Assembly (NCBI GenBank): GCA_016841445.1
Contig: JAENZD010000001.1
Span: 124,001-188,000, forward strand
DNA: 64,000 bases
DNA from: Anaerolineaceae bacterium
GTDB lineage: Bacteria; Chloroflexota; Anaerolineae; Anaerolineales; Anaerolineaceae
Direction: 5' to 3'
Positions 1 through 11,964 of the stretch are shown here, one piece after another (positions within the stretch are counted from its first letter, which is position 1; the number at the start of each line of letters is the position of its first letter). The notes below the pieces were generated by a model that was not told the DNA's origin, did no database searches, and saw only the letters and a program-made list of their open reading frames with translations. Both the position numbers and the translations under genes were made by a program.

Positions 1-1
1 A

Positions 2-3000
2 TATATTCGTGATTATCAACAGCGGCAGCGTTTATCTTTCAGAGCCCTCGATATCGAGCAGATCGGGCACATCTATGAAGGCCTTCTGGAATACAAAGCC
101 GCCAGGGCCGATCAGATCATGATCGGTCTGGAGGGGAATAAAGGCTATCCGTTGCCTTATATGGCGCTCGATGAACTGGAAGCGTATTACAGCAAAGGCA
201 TTAAACAATTATCTAAAGAAGTAAATGAAATTACCAATAAATCACATTCAGCCATCAAGAATGCCTTGGATAAACCGATTGATCTTGAATTTGCTGCCCG
301 GTTGCGGGTTGCCTGCCGCAATCAGGAACAGCTTTATCAGCGGGTAGCACCCTTTGCCTACCTGCTGAGGGAAGATGACTATCAAAATCTGGTCATTATT
401 GAACCCGGCAGTGTGTATGTTACCCTGGGCAGCACTCGCCGTGCCACCGGAACCCACTATACCCCCCGCAGCCTGACAGAACCCATTGTCCAGCATACGC
501 TTGACCCCCTTGTTTACAAAGGTCCTGCAGAGGGTTTGCCCCAGGATGAATGGGATCTGCACCATCCGGCCAAGCTGCTTGATCTCAAAATATGTGATAT
601 GGCCATGGGTTCAGGCTCATTCTTGGTGCAGGTCATTCGTAATTTATCCGAACGTCTGGTGGAAAGCTGGGAAAAACTTCTCCCCGTCACGGATCCTGAA
701 AAACAGCTGGGGCTGTATTTGTCTGCTGAGGGGAAAATCTTGGATACGCCTTCGGATGTCGCCTTACCCAACGATCTGGATGCCCGGTACCTGGTCGCTC
801 GCCGCCTTGTTGCAGATCGTTGTATCTATGGCGTTGATAAGAACCCCCTGGCAGTCGAGATGGCAAAGCTCTCCATCTGGCTGATCACCCTGGATAAGAA
901 CCGCCCCTTTACCTTTCTGGATCATTCCCTCAAATGTGGCGACTCTTTGGTGGGCGCAAGTGAGCAGGATTTCCTAAATTGGGCACACAGCACAGTTAAT
1001 AACACCACCTGGTCCTTGTTTGATGAGGGCATTCGTAATGAATTAGAGGACGCTCGTGCTAAACGGCGAGAGTTGGAAGCATTTGATGTTCGCGATATAA
1101 CCGATTTGGAGATGAAGAAGGACCTTCTCCATCAGGCGGAGCAGGCGGTTCAGCGTGTAAAATTGGGGTGTGATCTCCTAACCGGAGCCCGTTTGAAGGG
1201 GTTGGGTAAGACCGATCAGGAAGCTGAGGAGAGCATACTTCTGATGCAGTGGATGGCGGGAGAGATAGAAGATAATCCCCGTTGCCAAACCGCTTTGAAT
1301 ATATCCCAGAGAGAAAGAGTTTTTCATTGGTTCTTGGAATTTCCGGAAGTTTTCGAAAAAAGCGGATTTGACGCTTTTATTGGAAACCCTCCTTTCTTGG
1401 GGGGGCTAAGAATTAGTACAACTTATGGTGATAATTATCTATCATATATCCACAATAAATTTCTTGGTAAGGGAACTGCAGATCTTTGTTCTTATTTCTT
1501 CATGAATGCTTATGTTTTAATTTCAAGAAAAGGAAATATAGGGTTTATTGCTACCAATACAATCTCACAGGGAGATTCTCGTGAGATTGGATTTGACAGA
1601 ATAATTTCTGAAGGAGGAATCATTTACAGAGCCGATGTTTCTGTGAAATGGCCAGGTACTGCCGCTGTTTATGTGTCAATAATTCATTTGACTAATTCTA
1701 ATAATAATAATTATAAAAAATATCTTAATGGAGAGAAAGTTGAGACAATTTCCCCTTACTTAGATTCTTCAACTCTTTCTGGGAATCCAAAAATTCTCAA
1801 TCAAAATAAAGATATCGCTTTTAATGGTGTTTATGTTTTAGGATTGGGCTTTACACTTGAACCTGATTATGCACAAAGATTGATAGAAAAGGACCCAAAA
1901 AATTCGGATGTGTTGTTTCCATATTTAAATGGTTTCGATTTGAATAACCATCCGTTACAACAACCTAGCAGATGGATTATCAATTTTCATGATTGGCCAA
2001 TAAAAAAAGCTAAAGAGTATGAAGATTGTTTTCATATAATTCGTGAGGAGGTTTATGAAGAGCGCCAAAATAAAAATGATGAAAGGGCTCGAAAATATTG
2101 GTGGCGTTATATGAGGCCTAGACCGAATATGCAGAAAGCCATCTCTGGACTTAATCGAGTTCTTGTTGTTGCAGTTACAAGCAAGACCTTAGGCTTTTGT
2201 TTTGTTCCCAATGATTGGGTTTATGATATTGCTACAGTAGTTTTTGCATTTCAAAGTTATTTAAATTTTGCAATATTACAATCTACTTTTCATGAAAAGT
2301 GGGTTTGGAACTTTTCGTCAACCTTAAAACAAGATTTAAGATATACGCCAGGTACCGTATTCCAAAGTTTCCCGTTTCCCTCAAAATATGGTGAATTAGA
2401 GCAGGCAGGTGAAAAATATTATAAATTTCGAAAGATACTTATGCAAGAAAAATGGCAGGGATTGACAGAAATATACAACCAATTTCACGATCAAACAATA
2501 AAGGATAGCGATTTTAAAGAATTTAGAGAATATCATATGGGTATGGATTTTGCTGTTTCGGAGGCCTACGGTTGGGATGATATAAACCTGCAGCATGGAT
2601 TTCATGAAACACCATACGGGAAAAGGTTTACAATATGTGAAAATGCACGGGTCGAAATTCTGAGGAGATTGGTTGATCTTAATAGTTCTCGTTTTAGAAA
2701 CGAGGTACATAAAACATTTAATAAAGACCAAAGACATGCTTCAAAAAAATCGACAACTACCTCGCAAAAACAAGTAAAGCATGATTCTCAATTAAGGTCT
2801 ACTGGGCAAATAGAACTTGGCCTTGATATAGATTTACCTTCCCAACCTGCTCTTGAAATCGCTCCAAAACCTGCTGGTGCCCTTTCGATTGATCAGCTCG
2901 AAAACTGGTCCTGGTATCGCTGTGCTGCTTGCGGTACCACGGTCATGGGCTTCAGCGCCAAAGAGCATATTCAAGAAAAACATGGCAATGTCGATGTGGG

Positions 3001-3043
3001 GTTTATTAAGCCAAAGGATGCAAATCATCAAATAATAGATTAA
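2..3043 (+). CDS. drmMI: DISARM class 1 adenine DNA methylase DrmMI (5' truncated)
   Basis: N6-adenine DNA methyltransferase of the Eco57I/type IIG kind, expected to mark host DNA so that the DISARM machinery spares it. The frame is open from base 2, and the residues before the first ATG (119) already read as family sequence (LSFRALDIEQIGHIYEGLL), so the true start lies left of the window and ATG 119 is internal. The SAM motif DMAMGSGSF is at about 596-622 and the catalytic NPPF at about 1385-1396. A C-terminal CxxC...HxxxxH zinc-finger-like tail lies at about 2921-2988. Base composition changes inside the gene: the middle (about 1340-2830) is much AT-richer than both ends, suggesting an exchanged target-recognition part. 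The call rests on the family plus the downstream drmA-drmB-drmC order. Confidence 0.85.
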   Translation, partial: YIRDYQQRQRLSFRALDIEQIGHIYEGLLEYKAARADQIMIGLEGNKGYPLPYMALDELEAYYSKGIKQLSKEVNEITNKSHSAIKNALDKPIDLEFAARLRVACRNQEQLYQRVAPFAYLLREDDYQNLVIIEPGSVYVTLGSTRRATGTHYTPRSLTEPIVQHTLDPLVYKGPAEGLPQDEWDLHHPAKLLDLKICDMAMGSGSFLVQVIRNLSERLVESWEKLLPVTDPEKQLGLYLSAEGKILDTPSDVALPNDLDARYLVARRLVADRCIYGVDKNPLAVEMAKLSIWLITLDKNRPFTFLDHSLKCGDSLVGASEQDFLNWAHSTVNNTTWSLFDEGIRNELEDARAKRRELEAFDVRDITDLEMKKDLLHQAEQAVQRVKLGCDLLTGARLKGLGKTDQEAEESILLMQWMAGEIEDNPRCQTALNISQRERVFHWFLEFPEVFEKSGFDAFIGNPPFLGGLRISTTYGDNYLSYIHNKFLGKGTADLCSYFFMNAYVLISRKGNIGFIATNTISQGDSREIGFDRIISEGGIIYRADVSVKWPGTAAVYVSIIHLTNSNNNNYKKYLNGEKVETISPYLDSSTLSGNPKILNQNKDIAFNGVYVLGLGFTLEPDYAQRLIEKDPKNSDVLFPYLNGFDLNNHPLQQPSRWIINFHDWPIKKAKEYEDCFHIIREEVYEERQNKNDERARKYWWRYMRPRPNMQKAISGLNRVLVVAVTSKTLGFCFVPNDWVYDIATVVFAFQSYLNFAILQSTFHEKWVWNFSSTLKQDLRYTPGTVFQSFPFPSKYGELEQAGEKYYKFRKILMQEKWQGLTEIYNQFHDQTIKDSDFKEFREYHMGMDFAVSEAYGWDDINLQHGFHETPYGKRFTICENARVEILRRLVDLNSSRFRNEVHKTFNKDQRHASKKSTTTSQKQVKHDSQLRSTGQIELGLDIDLPSQPALEIAPKPAGALSIDQLENWSWYRCAACGTTVMGFSAKEHIQEKHGNVDVGFIKPKDANHQIID

Positions 3044-3094
3044 TATTGTAATAAGAACCTATGGCTTATTTAGATAATTTGATGGAGATAGATT

Positions 3095-4150
3095 GTGACG
3101 AAATTTGAAAAAACAACGTGGATTGTTATATTAACATTGATAATTATTCCATTAGGAATTAATTTCTATTATGAATATTTGAAAGAAGAAGTTTTATTGA
3201 TTATTCCTGCGGTGATATTATTATTGAATATCGGTTTTATTGGCACGTTGATAAGTAGTATTAAGGAAATAAAAAAATCAAGTAGTCGAAGATTTTATTT
3301 CAAAATTATCATATCTGTATTGTTAATGATCGCTTCTATTATCTTTTGTCTGTACCTTCAAAATAACCCAGAACTTAATCAAAATATTATTTTTTTTATT
3401 TTTCCAAACCTTAGCAATGATACCAATGACATTGCTGTTGAAACAGATAACGCTGAAGAGGAGGTCATAGAAACAATATCACAATCTTCTGATGATGAAA
3501 TTATAAATAATTGGTTTGCAGTTGATTGCATTTCGGAAGAATGGAGTTCGTTTAATATCGAATATGATCATGAAGATGGTTGCTTGTTTTTTAACGAAGT
3601 CTCTATTGAAAGTTTTGAAGGTGGGTTTGGAATACAACACTTAGCAGAGAATGGAATAAACTTTTTAGTTTTTCGACATATAGATAGCTCGATTTCTAAG
3701 ATAACATTCTCAGTTTACATCGAAGAAATAACTACACCAATAATTTCTTTTCCTAACGTTTTTTATTTTGGTTTTATTTCAAAAGATCCTAACTCAAGAT
3801 ATCCTTCAATGACAAATACACCACCAAGTGTTGCTTTTGATGGAGAATTTGTTTTATTTAATGGTTTTGGCGGCGTTAATACCAATGGCCTTATTCGGCA
3901 TGGAATAAATCCCAGTGAGATTTATGATAGAGTTCCAACAGATGTAGATTTTCGACAGAAACATACATACAAAGTGGATATTGATATTGTTGGTAATTAT
4001 TGGAATGTTAAAATAATCGATTTAACTGAATTACGACCCGAATTTTTACTATCAAATTTGAGTACAAAAGGTATGCTCTTGACTTTTGGATTTAAAATCC
4101 CACAAGATGGGATTACTAATATACAAATTTTCGATCTGATTGTTGAATGA
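3095..4150 (+). CDS. Membrane protein with three N-terminal helices and a beta-rich outer domain, inside the DISARM locus
   Basis: I do not recognise this family. The GTG start is 51 bases after the drmMI stop. Residues about 8-28, 33-55 and 70-90 are hydrophobic helices. The loop after helix 2 is basic (KEIKKSSSRR), so by the positive-inside rule the N-terminus is inside and the C-terminal part is outside the cell. An acidic linker (about 115-135) leads to about 215 residues rich in beta-type and aromatic residues, loosely like lectin/glucanase-fold sensor domains. The gene is AT-rich. Its position between drmMI and drmA is unusual and it is separated from the next gene by about 190 bases, so it could be an accessory of the defence locus or an unrelated insertion. 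Confidence 0.6.
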   Translation: MTKFEKTTWIVILTLIIIPLGINFYYEYLKEEVLLIIPAVILLLNIGFIGTLISSIKEIKKSSSRRFYFKIIISVLLMIASIIFCLYLQNNPELNQNIIFFIFPNLSNDTNDIAVETDNAEEEVIETISQSSDDEIINNWFAVDCISEEWSSFNIEYDHEDGCLFFNEVSIESFEGGFGIQHLAENGINFLVFRHIDSSISKITFSVYIEEITTPIISFPNVFYFGFISKDPNSRYPSMTNTPPSVAFDGEFVLFNGFGGVNTNGLIRHGINPSEIYDRVPTDVDFRQKHTYKVDIDIVGNYWNVKIIDLTELRPEFLLSNLSTKGMLLTFGFKIPQDGITNIQIFDLIVE

Positions 4151-4344
4151 TTGATCAGTAATCAATTATAGATGGAACAAAATTTACCTGTAGAATTACA
4201 TTAAATATGATAAGAAAATTCTAGTGAATAGATTGCAATATGTAGTTGATTTCGGAAATTTCACAGCTGTTCTATAGATGTGAGAAAGGTAGATAATGTT
4301 ACTGAAGAATTTAAATATTTCTTTAGGTACAGGTAAGAGGAGTG

Positions 4345-4671
4345 ATGAAAACAACAGCATGGAATAATGGGCAACATTTATCATCCGGTGTGGGGTATGG
4401 GCTCAAGGTGACAATTGAAGATCGTGACCGCTGTTTTGATCAACATTGGGGCAGTATCTGGCTGCGTTTGGAGGGTGAATCTCATGCATTTGAAGTTAAT
4501 GTTACCAAACCATCTTTTTGGGGAAAAACCTGTCATGAGTTAATCCATAAAAACATTGGCAAATGGTTGATCAAGAACCATCTGGCTCCCTGGCCTAAAG
4601 GTAAACCGCCCAAGTTGGAATTAGAACATATCAAGGATAATCACTTTTTCCTAAGGAAGAAAACACAATGA
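4345..4671 (+). CDS. Small unassigned protein (108-109 aa) translationally coupled to drmA
   Basis: Not recognised. ATG 4345 follows AAGAGGAG closely; a GTG at 4342 is the alternative start. The protein is rich in Trp, His and Lys, with no membrane segment and no obvious catalytic motif. Its central part (about residues 37-80: GSIWLRLEGESHAFEVNVTK, then FWGKTCHELIHKNIGKWL) looks like a compact alpha/beta fold. Its stop codon overlaps the drmA start in an ATGA, the tightest coupling in the locus, which suggests a product needed in proportion to DrmA. It may be a DISARM accessory; that is inference from context only. Confidence 0.65.
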   Translation: MKTTAWNNGQHLSSGVGYGLKVTIEDRDRCFDQHWGSIWLRLEGESHAFEVNVTKPSFWGKTCHELIHKNIGKWLIKNHLAPWPKGKPPKLELEHIKDNHFFLRKKTQ

Positions 4672-7600
4672 CATTACAACGATCTTCCACGCGAGAATTG
4701 CGAGCCAAATTACAGAAGATGGTCGAAAAGGATCTCCTTGGTCCAGCCATGGGTGAGGAGGAAGAACTCTTTGATTCTCCCCGTAACCGCTACCTGGTCG
4801 GCCTGCTGGCACCTAAGGGTGAACCCATCCCGGTAGATGAGAATGATGAATTAGCCTTGGATGGGGAGGGGGATGAGGATGAGGGCAGCCCTGAAGGCAA
4901 ACCTGCCCCTTTAGCTTCGATGATGCCCTCTTCAATTGGGTTGACATTTTCAGTCAGTAAAGAGGTTGAATCCATTCAAATTCAAGCGAAATGGGGTCAA
5001 TATACCCGTACTCGCTCTGAGACTTTGACTGAAGAGAGTGGCAAACCCAAATTGGTCTGGCAGCGTAAACAGATTGATCGTACCTCAGATCCAATCCCCC
5101 TTTTCGATGGAAAATTTGGTCCTTGGTCTCCCGAAACGGAATTCTCCGATGTGCAGGTCAAAGGTCTCATTCGGGACAAGGGCGATGCCTGGACGATCTC
5201 ATTGTACTTGGTCAACAATCAGGAAGAACCCGAGAGGCTGAAGAATGAGGCATGGCTCTTTCAACCCGAATTGCATGTTTCCCATCCCGACCACATACCA
5301 GTTTTTATCAAACGACAAACAATGGCAGGTGATCTGACACCAAATATCGAGGATCGACGCATGGAGATGAACTATCGCCACCACCTTGAATTTGTGGTTG
5401 GCCATGGTGTCGGCGCACATGCCACCCTCCCTGTCGACCGCTGGGATCGAGCCATTGAGGTTGAGACCAAGGTGATTCCTTCTTATGAAGTCCTTCGAAT
5501 GGAGGCGCCAGATCCTGAACAAATGCCAGGCATGTCAGGGCTTTTATTGGATATGAGGGCCTTAGCAGAATTGGAAAAAGGTTCATTTTCGGATGCCTTG
5601 ATGCCTTTGATTGATGCTTATGATCTCTGGATCACATCCCTTGAAAATCAACACCCTGTGGATTTGCTGCCCTATGAAAATGATGCCCAATTGGCGCTGC
5701 GGCTCTGCCGGGAAAATCTCAACCGTATTAAAACCGGAATCTTGTTGATTGATCAGGATGAAAATGCGGCTCGTGCATTTAAGTTTGCCAATCGAGCCAT
5801 GGCCGATCAACGTATCAGGACGATATACAGTCGATTGGTTCGCCAGGATGGGCCACCAGACATCGCAGATATTGATATTGCTAAGAACCGCAGTTGGCGT
5901 CCCTTCCAGCTGGCTTTCTTGCTCCTGAATCTTTCTGAAATGGTTGATCCAACCCATCCATACCGCAGTGATCCACATCAGTCTCTGGTTGATTTGCTTT
6001 GGTTTCCTACCGGTGGTGGTAAAACAGAAGCCTATTTAGGATTAACCGCCTTCACCTTAGCTATTCGGCGTCTTCAAAAAGATCCGGGTTGGGCGAACGG
6101 CCAGGCAGGTGTTACCGTTCTGATGCGCTATACCTTGCGCTTGCTAACACTGCAACAGTTTCAGCGTGCATCATCACTGATTTGTGCCTGTGAATTGATC
6201 AGGCGGGAAGATCCAACCACTTGGGGGGATGAACCCTTCAGAATTGGCCTCTGGGTGGGTGAAAAAAGTGCACCTAACCGAACAAAAGACGCAAAGAAGG
6301 AAGTCGATATCAGGCATCATCATATGCCCGCACAGCATGCAGGGCTTAAAGGAACGGTTGCTCAGTTAACCCATTGCCCCTGGTGCGGAAAACACATAGA
6401 TCCCGGGCAGGATATTAAGGTTGAACCATTTAATAAAGGTCGAGGCCGCACCATTCAATTTTGTGGGGATTCACTAGGGGTTTGTCCTTTCAGTCAGCGT
6501 CAATCGCCTGATGAAGGCTTGCCGATTGTTGTTGTTGATGAAGAGATTTACCGTCTATTACCGAGTCTTGTTATTGCAACGGTCGATAAATTCGCCCAGA
6601 TGCCCTGGAAGGGTGAAACCCAAATGCTTTTCGGTAGGGTCAATGGGAAATGCCCTCGTCATGGTTTTAGGTCCCCTGATGTTGAGGATACTGATTCCCA
6701 TCAAGCACTCGGAAGATTTCCCAGAGTCTCAACCATTCCCATGGAACCTTTGCGGCCGCCCGATTTGATCATCCAGGATGAGTTGCACTTGATCAGTGGG
6801 CCGTTAGGGACCCTGGTGGGATTATATGAAACAGCAGTGGATTACCTGTGTGAATGGCAGCTTGGGGAAACAAAAGTCAAACCCAAGATCATTGCCTCAA
6901 CGGCCACCATCCGTCGTGCTCAATCCCAGGTTCATAATCTCTATACCCGCAAAGTCAATATTTTCCCACCATCTGGGTTGAATACAGAGAACAACTTCTT
7001 TTCTAAGCAGGTACCATCATCTGAGAAATATCCGGGTCGATTATATATTGGTATTTGTTCAGCAGGTTTGCGTATTAAAAATGCGCTGTTGGGTGTTTAC
7101 TTTGCTTATATGGCAGCTGCTCAAACGCTATTCAATGAGGTTGGCAGTGATGCCGATCCATGGATGACTACGGTAGGATATTTCAATGCCATGCGTGAGT
7201 TGGGGGGCATGAGGCGCATCGTTGAAGATTCCCTGGGAACGATGCTCCGCAATGCTTATAAACGTGGTTTTGATGATCGAAAAATATATCAGGAGACAAT
7301 TGATGAGTTGAATTCCCGACGTAGTGGTGTGGACATTCCTCAAATTCTTTCCCGTTTGGAGAATAAGTTTCTCCCACCAGATGAAAGGGAAAAATCTTCA
7401 CAACAACCATTAGACATGGTGATGTGCACGAATATGATATCGGTAGGCGTGGATATCGATCGTTTGGGTTTGATGATTGTTGCCGGGCAGCCAAAAGCAA
7501 CTGCAGAGTATATTCAGGCATCCAGTCGGGTCGGCAGGAGATTCCCGGGTATCGTATGTACGGTTTACAACTGGGCTCGTCCTCGTGATCTAAGTCACTA

Positions 7601-8093
7601 TGAGCGTTTTGAACACTACCACGATACATTTTATCAAAATGTCGAGGCTCTCTCGGTGACGCCCTTCTCCCCTCGTGCTTTAGATCGAGGCTTGACGGGT
7701 GCCATGGTTTCCATGGTGCGTTTGGAAGATGATCAATTGAATGCGGATAAATCTGCCAAGGATTTCCGGAGAGATAATCCATTATTCCAACAATCGGCCT
7801 CTGCAATTAAATCTCGAGCGGAAGAAATCACTGAAAATAATGATGCTGTAAACCTTGTGGAGGAAATGTTATCAACAAGAGCTGATTACTGGCAAACTCA
7901 AACCAACAAAGTCAGTGCAGAGTTAACCTATAAGTCATCAAAGGGTATCTCGGTACCGCTTCTCAGCAAACCGCAAAATAAAATTAGGGGGCCCTTCACA
8001 TGTCTGAATTCGTTAAGAGATGTAGAACCAAATGTCAATTTAATACTTAATGTCGATGATGGGGAAGGGAAAGAGGAAGAATCAAATGAGTAA
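4668..8093 (+). CDS. drmA: DISARM helicase DrmA
   Basis: Large superfamily 2 helicase that is one of the three core DISARM proteins and acts with DrmB on incoming DNA. The Walker A motif (FPTGGGKT) is at about residues 446-453 and the Walker B variant DELH at about 704-707. A TATIRR motif III follows, then MISVGVDIDRLG and QASSRVGR (about 950-957) as motifs V and VI. Cysteine pairs (HCPWCGKH, then FCGDSLGVCPF) between motifs I and II suggest a zinc site. The length (1141 aa) fits the family. The start overlaps the upstream small gene by ATGA and the end overlaps drmB by 8 bases. Confidence 0.9.
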   Translation: MTLQRSSTRELRAKLQKMVEKDLLGPAMGEEEELFDSPRNRYLVGLLAPKGEPIPVDENDELALDGEGDEDEGSPEGKPAPLASMMPSSIGLTFSVSKEVESIQIQAKWGQYTRTRSETLTEESGKPKLVWQRKQIDRTSDPIPLFDGKFGPWSPETEFSDVQVKGLIRDKGDAWTISLYLVNNQEEPERLKNEAWLFQPELHVSHPDHIPVFIKRQTMAGDLTPNIEDRRMEMNYRHHLEFVVGHGVGAHATLPVDRWDRAIEVETKVIPSYEVLRMEAPDPEQMPGMSGLLLDMRALAELEKGSFSDALMPLIDAYDLWITSLENQHPVDLLPYENDAQLALRLCRENLNRIKTGILLIDQDENAARAFKFANRAMADQRIRTIYSRLVRQDGPPDIADIDIAKNRSWRPFQLAFLLLNLSEMVDPTHPYRSDPHQSLVDLLWFPTGGGKTEAYLGLTAFTLAIRRLQKDPGWANGQAGVTVLMRYTLRLLTLQQFQRASSLICACELIRREDPTTWGDEPFRIGLWVGEKSAPNRTKDAKKEVDIRHHHMPAQHAGLKGTVAQLTHCPWCGKHIDPGQDIKVEPFNKGRGRTIQFCGDSLGVCPFSQRQSPDEGLPIVVVDEEIYRLLPSLVIATVDKFAQMPWKGETQMLFGRVNGKCPRHGFRSPDVEDTDSHQALGRFPRVSTIPMEPLRPPDLIIQDELHLISGPLGTLVGLYETAVDYLCEWQLGETKVKPKIIASTATIRRAQSQVHNLYTRKVNIFPPSGLNTENNFFSKQVPSSEKYPGRLYIGICSAGLRIKNALLGVYFAYMAAAQTLFNEVGSDADPWMTTVGYFNAMRELGGMRRIVEDSLGTMLRNAYKRGFDDRKIYQETIDELNSRRSGVDIPQILSRLENKFLPPDEREKSSQQPLDMVMCTNMISVGVDIDRLGLMIVAGQPKATAEYIQASSRVGRRFPGIVCTVYNWARPRDLSHYERFEHYHDTFYQNVEALSVTPFSPRALDRGLTGAMVSMVRLEDDQLNADKSAKDFRRDNPLFQQSASAIKSRAEEITENNDAVNLVEEMLSTRADYWQTQTNKVSAELTYKSSKGISVPLLSKPQNKIRGPFTCLNSLRDVEPNVNLILNVDDGEGKEEESNE

Positions 8094-9960
8094 AGTTCAC
8101 ATTGGCGATATCCGGCCCTCCCAGTTTATGTACAGTTATGGTATTGGATCCCTGATTGATCTTCCTTCTTTTTCAGTGATTGTGGACGGTTTAGATTTTT
8201 GGAAGATCGATCAAAACTCAGAACGTATTATCGAGAACCGTCTTCTTCAAGCTGTAAAATATTATGAACCATTTGCCCGGTTTCTGATTCATCCCCCAAC
8301 AGCACCAGATTCGAACCAATATGGTAATCCCTTCTCCGAAGGCGCGCTGGTAGGGCTTCCTGTTTCTGTCTTTCCAAGGTGGATGTATTGCTCAAAATGT
8401 CGGCTTTTGACCCCAATTGATGATGGTCTGTTTGACCTCAAGAAAGACCTTGCTAAACCTGAAAATAATAGATATGAACACACAAACTGTCCCAAAAAGG
8501 GAAGAAGTTTTCGTCCGCCCAAAGCAATCCCGGTTAGGTTCCTGGCGGTTTGTGAAGATGGTCACATGGATGATTTCCCCTGGGTGGAATATGTTCATCA
8601 AAATCAGCCATGTTTAAACCCGTTATTGTATTTTTATGAAGTTGGGTTATCGGGTGAAGCCAGGGGTGTAACTGTTGAATGTGCATCATGTGGTAAGCGC
8701 AGGCAACTGGGTGATGCTTTTCAAAGAAAAAATAGAGAAAATTTGCCGCTATGTAGAGGTTATCATCCACATCTTCGTGATGTAGATCCTGAAGGGTGTG
8801 AAAATCATATCAGGCCCATTGTTCTTGGCGCTTCAAATACCTGGTTTCCGGTGACATTAAATGTGATTGCCATTCCGGTAGAGACTAAGAGGTTAAATGA
8901 GCTGGTTGAGGAACACTGGTCTTATCTGGTGAATGTTAACCAAGTAAGCGACCTTGATATGCTAAGAAGATTAGGTACGCTAAGCAATGAATTATTGGAG
9001 TCATCGAATGAAGACATTTTTAAAGTGATCAATGAAATCAAAGGCGTTTTAGAATCAGAGGATATTCTGACGGAAGAACCTGACTTAAAAAGCCCTGAGT
9101 GGAATACGCTAACCGACCTCTCTAAATCATACAAAACAAAAGATTTCCAATTAAACCCAGTGGATGTTCCTTCATCATTAACCCCCTATATCAAGCGTTT
9201 GGTTTTAGTTGAACGGTTGAGGGAAGTAAGTGCATTAATTGGGTTCACGCGTTTAGATTCATTTGGCGAGGTGATTGAATCGGAACAGGAAATTACTGTT
9301 GACCGTGTTCCGCTTTATAAGTTTAAAAATGATTGTTTCCCTGCGAATGAAATTCGAGGGGAGGGAATTTTTATTCAATTTGATGAGGATGCCATTCAGC
9401 ATTGGGAAAGATTGTCTGTTGTAGCAAGAAGACAAGAAGAATTTTTCTATGCGCATCGTAGTTTTCGTCAAGCACATTTCTTTGCAAATCCTGAAGATAA
9501 TTTTCCGGGCATTAGGTATGTCTTGCTTCATTCATTTTCTCATGCGCTAATGCGTCAGCTCTCACTTTCTTGTGGTTACCCCGTTGCCAGTATCCGGGAA
9601 CGTATTTATTCAGCAAGCGATGATCCAAAGGGTCCCATGGCTGGGATATTGTTATATACAGCAGCACCGGATAGCGAAGGCACCCTGGGTGGTTTAGTTG
9701 AGATGGGCCGAACTGAAAACTTTGAAGCTTTGATGTATGATTTGTTCAATGGAATGAGTTTCTGCTCAAATGATCCGACCTGTGCGGAAAACGATCCGAG
9801 TGAATTAGGTCAAACAATTCATGCAGCAGCCTGTCATGCGTGTCTCTTCTCTCCTGAGACCTCTTGCGAGAAAGGCAACAAATATTTAGATCGTTCGTTG
9901 ATTTGCGATACGATACATCGATCAGATTTGAATTTCTTTGGAAGCCAAAGTGGAAGATAA
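8086..9960 (+). CDS. drmB: DISARM protein DrmB (DUF1998)
   Basis: DUF1998-containing partner of DrmA, core to DISARM. I chose ATG 8086 (MSKVHIGDIRPSQF), which has AGAGGAAGA 5-6 bases upstream and overlaps the drmA stop by 8 bases; an in-frame ATG at 8050 lacks support. The N-terminus IGDIRPSQFMYSYGIGSLID is typical of the family. Cysteine pairs (CSKCRLLTP, then CASCGK) suggest zinc binding. The DUF1998 core LLHSFSHALMRQLSLSCGYP begins at about residue 480, and a C-terminal cysteine cluster (CHACLFSPETSC) starts near 584. Expected length about 624 aa. Confidence 0.88.
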   Translation: MSKVHIGDIRPSQFMYSYGIGSLIDLPSFSVIVDGLDFWKIDQNSERIIENRLLQAVKYYEPFARFLIHPPTAPDSNQYGNPFSEGALVGLPVSVFPRWMYCSKCRLLTPIDDGLFDLKKDLAKPENNRYEHTNCPKKGRSFRPPKAIPVRFLAVCEDGHMDDFPWVEYVHQNQPCLNPLLYFYEVGLSGEARGVTVECASCGKRRQLGDAFQRKNRENLPLCRGYHPHLRDVDPEGCENHIRPIVLGASNTWFPVTLNVIAIPVETKRLNELVEEHWSYLVNVNQVSDLDMLRRLGTLSNELLESSNEDIFKVINEIKGVLESEDILTEEPDLKSPEWNTLTDLSKSYKTKDFQLNPVDVPSSLTPYIKRLVLVERLREVSALIGFTRLDSFGEVIESEQEITVDRVPLYKFKNDCFPANEIRGEGIFIQFDEDAIQHWERLSVVARRQEEFFYAHRSFRQAHFFANPEDNFPGIRYVLLHSFSHALMRQLSLSCGYPVASIRERIYSASDDPKGPMAGILLYTAAPDSEGTLGGLVEMGRTENFEALMYDLFNGMSFCSNDPTCAENDPSELGQTIHAAACHACLFSPETSCEKGNKYLDRSLICDTIHRSDLNFFGSQSGR

Positions 9961-10720
9961 ACAATTAGATGATCTACTAGAAATTTATAATAGCATTCCC
10001 TCATCCTCTCTTGATCGCGTAATTTCGACATTAAGCGCTGGAAAGGATAAGTTTGAGGATATCCAGTTCCTCCAATCGAATTTTGGGTTTTCAGCATCAG
10101 CAAAGGTTCTGATCAGAATGATTTCAGCTGATAATATAAAGCCTTCTGATATCGCTATTATATTGAGGGCATTTCAAAAATCTAAAGAGTCAACACCCGA
10201 AAGCAATTTATCTTTGGTATGGTCAGGTCCCAATTTAATGGGTGTCCCAATTCGCATGACGTCTCAAGTTATCTTAGAGATGATTGATAAATCTGAGGAA
10301 AGTCTATTTATTTCCAGTTTTTCATTCTATAAAATTAATGTAGTGTTTGACGCCCTCGAAAAAGCAATCGCCAGGGGAGTTAAAATTTCTCTCTTGCTTG
10401 AAACCCCGCAATCCAGCCACTATAAAATTAAAAACGATCCAATGGGGGTTTTTAGTGATGCATTTAAATCCAAAGCCTCATTCTACATTTGGCCTTATAA
10501 GAATCGGGTAATACCTGGAGATGATCAAACCGGTTCATTACATGCCAAATTCATTCTTCAAGATGACAAGCGCTTGTTTATCACCAGTGCAAATCTGACA
10601 CAATATGCAATGGATCGCAATATTGAATTGGGAATAATAATTGAAGATCAGGCAATTATTAGTAAGTTTCAAGACCATTTGGATGCATTAATCAGTTCAA
10701 ATGTGATAACAAGAACCTGA
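9950..10720 (+). CDS. drmC: DISARM phospholipase-D-like protein DrmC
   Basis: PLD-family protein, the third core DISARM gene; its nuclease role is assumed from the fold. GTG 9950 is preferred because GGAAG sits 5 bases upstream; a TTG at 9938 is the alternative. Either start overlaps the drmB stop. One complete HKD motif, HAKFILQD (H about 198, K 200, D 205), is followed by a conserved TSANLT stretch. The N-terminal half has the PLD fold pattern (SLFISSFSF) without a second HKD, so a dimer would be needed for two-motif catalysis. The next gene begins 56 bases downstream after an AT-rich gap. Confidence 0.83.
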   Translation: MEDKQLDDLLEIYNSIPSSSLDRVISTLSAGKDKFEDIQFLQSNFGFSASAKVLIRMISADNIKPSDIAIILRAFQKSKESTPESNLSLVWSGPNLMGVPIRMTSQVILEMIDKSEESLFISSFSFYKINVVFDALEKAIARGVKISLLLETPQSSHYKIKNDPMGVFSDAFKSKASFYIWPYKNRVIPGDDQTGSLHAKFILQDDKRLFITSANLTQYAMDRNIELGIIIEDQAIISKFQDHLDALISSNVITRT

Positions 10721-10776: not shown

Positions 10777-11964
10777 ATGCTTTTTGAGAAAGATTTTTAT
10801 TCATTAACATATGATGATCTGAAGAGACTTATTGAAAACGAGGTCCCAGAAGATCGATACCTTGAGTATAAGCTAGATATTCCAGGTAACTCATATGATG
10901 ATGTGAAAGAGTTTCTTGCTGATGTGTCAGCATTTGCGAATGCTTCAGGTGGAACAATTCTCTTTGGCATTACGGAAGAAAGCGGTATTCCAGTTTCTAT
11001 TGATGGTTTGGATATAGAGGATATCGATAGTGAAATATTGAGGTTACAAGATATTATTCGCAATAGTATCAAGCCAGTGATTTCTCAAATATTTATTCGC
11101 TCCATAGATGTTAGTGATAGTCGAAAAGTCTTAATTATTAGTATTGCCCAAAGCTGGTCAGCACCTCATGTCGTGGAATATAAGAAACATTGGCGATTTT
11201 ACACCCGCACTTCAGCAGGAAAACACCCAATGGATATTCAAGAGGTAAGAGAAAAAATGCTTCAGTCAAATACCCTTTCTGAAAAAATGGATCAATTTCG
11301 AAATGAGAGATTGGCATTAATTAAGAATGGCGATTATCCAATAAAATTGATCTCTGATTCAATCATTGCTTTACACCTAATTCCTTTTTCTGCCCTATTC
11401 AGTAAGGGTTCTTCAGCCATCAACTTTAATGTTATCACTCAAAACTTTAATTATATTTCTCCTCTCAACTCTTCTGTCAAAACTTCGAAATATAATCTTG
11501 AGGGTTATATTAATTTCGGTTTTATTGATGATAAAGGAGGAGCATCAGGTTATGTCCAAATTTATCGCAATGGAATAATTGAATCAGTGGATTCCAGTAT
11601 TCTAGGTCTAACTTCTATAAAAACCCCCTCACTTCGAAGCGGGCTTGTAGAAAGAGAGATTGTCAACAAAGTAAAAATATATCTTGAGTATCAAAGAAGA
11701 ATGGGAGTATTGCCCCCTATTGTTTTGTTTGCTTCTTTTTTGAACATTCGAGGTTATTATCTTTCAATGAGCGATCGACAAGAGTATTTTGGTGATGTCC
11801 TACATCGTGATTCTATTTTGATTCCAGAGATTATCTTTGAGGATTTTCCTGATGATATTCCAATTGCCTTGCGAGATTTATTTGATAGGATGTGGAATGC
11901 GTTTGGTTGGGAACGTTCGCTAAGTTATGATGATAAAGGCAATTGGATAGGCACACTTAGGTAG
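10777..11964 (+). CDS. AlbA_2 (Schlafen-type) ATP-binding domain protein
   Basis: The N-terminal about 180 residues match the AlbA_2 domain: YLEYKLDIPG, then VSAFANASGGTILFGI with the conserved glycine turn, and later RFYTRTSAGKHPMDIQEV. Such proteins are often putative regulators or nucleotide-binding factors and are common in defence islands. The C-terminal about 200 residues are not recognised and contain no clear helix-turn-helix. The gene follows drmC in the same direction with a 56-base gap and a similar AT-rich composition, so it may belong to the island. Its function in DISARM, if any, is unknown. Confidence 0.75.
   Translation: MLFEKDFYSLTYDDLKRLIENEVPEDRYLEYKLDIPGNSYDDVKEFLADVSAFANASGGTILFGITEESGIPVSIDGLDIEDIDSEILRLQDIIRNSIKPVISQIFIRSIDVSDSRKVLIISIAQSWSAPHVVEYKKHWRFYTRTSAGKHPMDIQEVREKMLQSNTLSEKMDQFRNERLALIKNGDYPIKLISDSIIALHLIPFSALFSKGSSAINFNVITQNFNYISPLNSSVKTSKYNLEGYINFGFIDDKGGASGYVQIYRNGIIESVDSSILGLTSIKTPSLRSGLVEREIVNKVKIYLEYQRRMGVLPPIVLFASFLNIRGYYLSMSDRQEYFGDVLHRDSILIPEIIFEDFPDDIPIALRDLFDRMWNAFGWERSLSYDDKGNWIGTLR

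Follow-up and report, generated by a model that had tools for sequence, protein, structure and literature searches.

The window, a 64,000-nucleotide (nt) stretch of an Anaerolineaceae genome (GenBank assembly GCA_016841445.1, contig JAENZD010000001.1, positions 124,001 to 188,000), holds most of a class I operon of the defence island system associated with restriction-modification (DISARM), in which a small gene lies directly upstream of the helicase gene drmA. The gene belongs to a protein family that is absent from four libraries, and confident models of two members match B3/EcoRII-N domains. Within the window's order (Anaerolineales) the family is recurrently linked to DISARM, and elsewhere members are also found beside other systems of the restriction-modification (R-M) type. 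The encoded protein, predicted to have a B3 fold, may well be an optional accessory of restriction-type defence, carried here as cargo between drmMI and drmA. We infer that it binds DNA, that it is monomeric and what kind of help it would lend to defence.

The complete operon reads drmD, drmMI, a gene for a 351-aa protein, the small gene, drmA, drmB, drmC and an AlbA-type Schlafen gene. As the initial annotation had proposed, the small gene is joined to drmA by an ATGA overlap (Table 1), and its naming of the neighbour as DrmA was borne out by a profile score above the cut-off. Mechanical calling starts the open reading frame (ORF) at GTG 4342; ATG 4345 is the preferred start because relatives begin with M[IKV]xTAWNN and AGAGGAG stands just upstream. 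Since relatives with 36-56% identity occur in several phyla, 4345-4671 is a gene and not a chance ORF. The overlap had also been taken to imply stoichiometric production with the helicase, a claim that is weakened by how common such overlaps are: the preceding ORF overlaps drmA by exactly 4 nt at 5 of 30 drmA loci (four plus the window's), counted with mechanical ORF starts and with no upstream ORF visible at 4 of the 30.

AlphaFold2 was run on a 22-row alignment of the family and gave mean predicted local distance difference test (pLDDT) scores of 93.7 for the window protein and 94.5 for a distant archaeal member (L026). In a Foldseek search of the PDB, the best match of the window model was the N-terminal domain of LlaJI.R1 (E 0.019), and none reached 0.001. 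When Foldseek's match list was re-compared using VIA-align, B3/EcoRII-N domains occupied ranks 1-21 and 23 (Z 7.1 to 4.6), with MraZ at rank 22 (Z 4.8) and the next row at Z 3.2. For the L026 model, the top 26 rows were all B3/EcoRII-N domains (Z 7.6 to 4.3), followed by a row at 3.5. The rows for VRN1, At1g16640 and ARF are counted here as B3 domains, which we take them to be, and the VP1/RAV domain is likewise assumed to be B3. The B3 domain of R.NgoAVII aligned with 99 residues of the window model (Z 7.1, root-mean-square deviation (rmsd) 3.2) and with 97 residues of the L026 model (Z 7.6, rmsd 3.1), and further Z values for the window model were 6.9 (FUS3), 6.5 (LlaJI.R1), 6.0 (BfiI) and 4.9 (EcoRII-N). 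Because of the gap in Z to the next rows and the full coverage, a B3/EcoRII-N fold is favoured, and the protein is predicted to be a single-domain DNA-binding pseudobarrel of this kind over the whole domain; judging by the model, it may also be related to the MraZ fold. BolA (PDB, E 0.69) and LolB (Pfam, 2 of 22 members, best E 0.043) were set aside as chance-level matches.

Residues kept in at least 90% of the alignment rows include W6, N7, N8, G9, G15, G17, Y18, G19, D26, R27, D28, F31, F58, W59, E65, L66, G72, W74, A81, W83, P88, P89 and F101. Conservation amounts to 3.74 bits in strand b1, 3.10 in the b1-b2 loop, 3.54 in b2 and 3.25 in the a2-b6 loop. In B3 domains the N-arm lies in the b1-b2 loop, and the conservation pattern supports at best one putative DNA arm. 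The N-terminal strand-loop-strand WNNGxHxxSGxGYG is strongly conserved across contexts, which hints, weakly, that members may share one DNA feature and show no target diversification of the kind found in R-M specificity domains. Computed charge exceeds +3 in 13 of the 22 members, and an acidic DNA-mimic anti-restriction protein was rejected on account of these clearly basic proteins.

The statement in the initial annotation that the protein has no recognisable family held in all four libraries: there was no match up to E 1 in Pfam, PADLOC or NCBIfam and nothing significant in PHROGs (best E 0.18 and 0.39). A single-sequence search of genome contigs yielded no relatives. Among the window's own genome and its relatives, the family was present in 4 of 101 genomes (own included), and a four-row profile recovered 22 loci in GTDB species genomes. 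Of these, 21 are usable; L027 is doubtful (a 49-residue match with no ORF hit) and was excluded from the 22-row alignment and from the locus count. The usable loci belong to Chloroflexota, Methanosarcinaceae, Methanophagales, Phycisphaerae, Bacteroidetes, Chlorobiaceae, Nitrospirales, Deltaproteobacteria, Proteobacteria, Thermomicrobiales and Zixibacteria; a Shewanella bin among the Proteobacteria has, by eye, a ParA-like gene nearby. Later searches added G166, G530, G707, G750, G761, G764, G817 and G840, bringing the family to 30 distinct loci, window included, in Chloroflexota, other bacteria and archaea. The other four hits of the order-sample search, besides the window, repeat L009, L014, L015 and L019, and flanking DNA is short at some loci (L018, L023, L009, L090). 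Trees (L028 dropped as a fragment, G166 and L027 left out) contained no supported clade of DISARM-linked members, and their deep forks were weak. In Methanolobus (L017, 7439-8788), a B3-like domain forms the C-terminus of a 449-aa ORF that also has a bacterial PH domain, a weak, sub-threshold zinc ribbon and a middle part of no known family.

Searches of plasmids and phages by tblastn with the window protein, the only query used for phages, found nothing. Of two other members compared with plasmids, one had no match, and the other had a 45-residue match (E 0.02) that falls within a protein annotated as substrate-binding. IMG/VR gave no match with the four-row profile and a single contig (L068) with the 22-row profile; in the 9.4 kb viewed of its 28.5 kb, the B3-like protein and BREX (bacteriophage exclusion) genes look like those of locus L022, and the contig may be of virus origin. 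A phage structural gene was rejected, since no PHROGs match was better than E 0.18 and BFVD yielded none at E <= 0.001. Apart from the copy on L068, no sign was found of the phage or housekeeping origin that the initial annotation had named as a reason to abandon its proposal. Judged by title or abstract opening, none of the open-licence papers listed, a set without the original DISARM description, deals with this family or with a B3 protein in DISARM, and a text search of a preprint on YprA helicases (PMC12458937) returned none of 'B3-like', 'B3 domain' and 'pseudobarrel'.

Linkage to drmA recurs inside the window's order, where the family occurs in 11 of 271 genomes and drmA likewise in 11 (9 over the cut-off). 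Both are present in four genomes, as against 0.45 expected (hypergeometric P 4.3e-4), or in 3 of 270 without the window genome (P 0.0039); these values ignore kinship and serve as a guide only. In all four genomes the two genes are linked and on the same strand, with the family gene between drmMI and drmA in three and upstream of a truncated drmA in the fourth (L009). Genome G840 has the order drmMI, 108 aa, 206 aa, GmrSD-like, B3-like, drmA, drmB, drmC, and genome G761 the order drmD, drmMI, 210 aa, B3-like, 1260 aa, drmA, drmB, drmC. The 1260-aa protein in the DISARM slot of L085 (7063-10845) has no Pfam or PADLOC match. At L009, a B3-like and a GmrSD-like gene precede drmA, whose match shifts frame at about residue 470 and stops at residue 678; the locus is either a remnant or misassembled. 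The repeated co-occurrence with drmA that the initial annotation had suggested looking for is therefore found within the order, and an early view of a solitary gene linked to DISARM by chance was dropped after this result. Recurrent linkage at independent loci (window, L084, L085 and, with truncated drmA, L009) is the pattern expected of an accessory.

Outside these loci the two genes mostly occur apart. In the order, 7 of the 11 drmA genomes are without the family: none of six other drmA operons (L091-L096) contains it, and the seventh genome (G071) is not among the order-sample family hits. In a phylum sample of 400 genomes, the family was found in 3 and drmA (match at E <= 1e-60) in 47, 31 of them over the curated cut-off; the window genome alone has both, and 46 of the 47 drmA genomes are without the family, a comparison that takes two 400-genome draws as the same (their listed handles agree). 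Among the 22 records behind the four-row-profile loci, drmA is present in three (G488, G496, G503) and linked only in G488 (L009); it is on a different contig from the family gene in G496 and, judged by contig number, apparently also in G503. Overall, 26 of the 30 family loci have no linked drmA, the four linked ones being the window, L009, L084 and L085. Because most family loci are without drmA and most drmA genomes are without the gene, the gene is best described as an optional accessory and not as a constitutive subunit.

The position that the gene occupies varies in content. The drmMI-drmA interval ranges from 18 to 5500 nt across the eight operons with both ends visible, and the B3-like gene is one of its several cargoes. 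Others are AAA ATPases matching PtuA, AriA or LmuB models (L091, L092), GmrSD-like proteins (L084 and, by PADLOC pattern, L092), a KAP NTPase (L093), weakly CHAT/DUF6642-like proteins (L084, L085) and a 229-aa protein with no PADLOC match (L096), and the interval of L094 has no cargo. In L095, where the drmMI end falls outside the contig, a PtuA/AriA-like ATPase and a weakly AriB-like partner stand before drmA. The interval is thus a slot for changeable cargo in class I DISARM operons of the window's order.

Five of the 26 loci without linked drmA adjoin type I R-M, BREX or type IIG genes. At L015 (the same as L006) the gene precedes a group of type I R-M genes together with a KAP NTPase (PDC-S20) and an Mrr-type gene, a context that, by eye, the cut-off sibling L013 shares; L014, syntenic with L015 on the other side of the gene, has the gene and none of this group. 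In archaeon G530 (L073) hsdR, hsdS and hsdM are followed on the same strand by the family gene, with 61 nt from hsdM to the ORF start. At L022 two unassigned ORFs separate the gene from the divergently oriented brxA, brxB and brxC, and at L026 a type IIG enzyme lies about 1.9 kb upstream. Some further neighbours were named by eye: a Y-family polymerase gene behind the B3-like gene of L022, a MazF-like gene at L008 (no PADLOC model matched), and nuclease-like genes without a Pfam or PADLOC match at L010 (10411-10908, GIY-YIG) and L016 (9257-9574, PD-(D/E)XK). At L089 (9339-10018) the B3-like gene overlaps its preceding gene by 4 nt; the latter encodes a 119-aa protein, MmcQ/YjbR-like by eye, with no PADLOC match.

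Table 1 Features of the DISARM operon in the window around the gene for the predicted B3-like protein.
Feature	Coordinates	Strand	Basis or remark
drmMI methyltransferase, 3' part	1..3043	+	DrmMI 1627.9 bits on stretch L074
drmMI-drmA interval, 1624 nt	3044..4667	+	cargo differs among related operons
AT-rich 351-aa protein, co-cargo beside the B3-like gene	3095..4150	+	weak PycTM match, E 4.7e-5; GC 29.6%
Stand-alone protein, predicted B3-like, 108 aa	4345..4671	+	ORF, relatives, model and fold
ATGA, stop of the B3-like gene overlapping the drmA start	4668..4671	+	stop TGA 4669-4671, drmA ATG 4668-4670
drmA, class I (short form) DISARM helicase	4668..8093	+	NF038325 1347.7 bits, cut-off 950
drmB	8050..9960	+	NF038324 648.7 bits
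drmC, phospholipase D (PLD)-type nuclease	9938..10720	+	NF038319 201.8 bits; Pfam PLDc_2

The drmMI gene encodes 1414 aa and starts upstream of the window, where drmD precedes it (DrmD 1347.4 bits, L074). The profile match of drmB begins at residue 18, so its true start may sit slightly downstream of 8050. Directly after drmC, 10777-11964 encodes an AlbA_2 Schlafen-domain protein (Pfam E 1.7e-16). A gene for a TmtA-like protein (L074 1-1452, minus strand; PADLOC E 8.8e-34), only part of which is on stretch L074, is divergent from drmD; it lies about 4.5 to 6 kb upstream of the window, and the island thus has a second candidate defence gene.

Several results tell against a B3-fold accessory of defence. 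The two models were built from one set of 22 sequences, and Z values of about 7 are middling. No link to B3 families was detected by sequence in Pfam for the window protein (to E 1), the 22 members matched LolB alone and no B3-type family there (to E 0.1), and the family profile matched nothing in the PDB up to E 10. The b4-b5 loop, the putative second DNA arm, has 2.69 bits, about the average, and computed charge lies between -4.5 and +0.8 in 9 of the 22 members. No defence system was recognised at 21 of the 30 loci, which were read mainly by eye from translations with few proteins scanned. N6_Mtase matches within 5 kb at 2 loci, against 0.16 expected (P 0.012), make a weak, rough and post hoc test (63 matches, a hand-summed 88.9 Mb, 22 loci, with G022 and G034 omitted as copies of G494 and G498). 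In the regions upstream of 20 of the 30 loci, the top k-mers were no commoner than in shuffles, and for 6-mers the shuffles exceeded the data. Searches with PF09217 and PF02362 over 151 genomes each had no matches, and since the control genomes were likewise unmatched they carry no weight either way.

The 21 loci without a recognised defence system favour an independent mobile gene with a function of its own, in solo defence or otherwise, that arrives in defence islands as a passenger, functionally unconnected with DISARM. The patchy spread across phyla, the one-sided synteny of L014 and L015 and the two records in which drmA and the gene are unlinked (G496, G503) point the same way; however, linkage in all four order-sample genomes that have both genes, always on the operon's strand, makes a mere passenger rather unlikely. 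Small DNA-binding regulators control other defence loci, and the B3-like protein could similarly bind upstream DNA and control the operon that carries it. Its size, its often basic charge and its predicted DNA-binding fold would suit such a role, as would its divergence from the BREX gene group in L022 and L068 and the AT-rich gap of 194 nt before the gene in the window. Against this, the gene follows hsdM on the same strand in L073 and is in mid-operon in L085, upstream k-mers are not shared beyond shuffles, and promoter-like sites in 3000-4800 are as frequent as in shuffles (9 vs 9.4), and we regard a transcription regulator as unlikely. The undescribed, constitutive DISARM subunit produced in step with DrmA, as envisaged in the initial annotation, can claim the ATGA overlap and the presence of the gene in 4 of the 11 drmA genomes of the order. 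A core subunit would be expected in most drmA operons and its family confined to DISARM loci; the gene is in 1 of 47 drmA genomes of the phylum sample, homologues are widely found away from DISARM, which that annotation had itself listed as counter-evidence, and a 4-nt overlap is common at drmA. Recurrent linkage survives from this proposal, and constitutive membership is very improbable, being largely refuted by drmA operons without the gene unless an unrelated substitute is carried there.

An optional accessory can be compared with known systems. The B3-like specificity domains of R.NgoAVII and BfiI share the predicted fold over nearly the whole protein (Z 7.1 and 6.0; the R.CglI B3 domain was outside the structure comparison). 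In the available excerpts of PMC4267653, the CglI and NgoAVII systems likewise comprise a methyltransferase, a superfamily 2 (SF2) helicase/ATPase, a PLD nuclease and a B3 reader, and the B3 domains of R.CglI and R.NgoAVII, when isolated, show specific binding to cognate DNA; together with excerpts of PMC5737866, they also describe the pairing of B3 domains with SF2 helicase/ATPase and methyltransferase and the binding of R.NgoAVII and BfiI B3 domains as monomers. Unlike in R.NgoAVII, R.CglI and BfiI, the barrel here is a separate protein with no detected sequence relation to theirs, and its neighbours are the nuclease and helicase of DISARM. EcoRII-N, an effector domain, and the N-terminal domain of LlaJI.R1 have the same fold class (Z 4.9 and 6.5) and are domains of larger restriction proteins, unlike the stand-alone window protein. 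VP1/RAV-domain proteins in MORC restriction neighbourhoods (Iyer et al. 2008, PMC2292703) can be compared by description only, as the passage concerned gives no sequence-family definition. As with accessory genes of class I DISARM, the B3-like gene is in the operon, on the same strand and between drmMI and drmA; its product is not a named Drm protein and has no match among PADLOC models up to E 1.

In the excerpted account of the DrmAB structure, DNA is chosen by structure, through a 5' overhang displacing the trigger loop, and not by sequence (PMC9142583). DISARM could gain a reader of double-stranded DNA from a separate B3-like protein. In its most specific form, the protein would be a trans-acting target-recognition subunit, a swappable sequence- or modification-specific reader of double-stranded DNA for DISARM, type I R-M or BREX, and the DISARM operon carrying it would amount to a split CglI/NgoAVII enzyme (methyltransferase, B3 reader, SF2 helicase and PLD nuclease); we consider this form distinctly improbable. 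The data do not separate an adaptor, a regulator and a passenger. An optional DNA reader would bear on how DISARM chooses phage DNA, and, if the accessory role is true, a predicted DNA-reading protein beside drmA and other restriction systems would offer a direct handle on added specificity.
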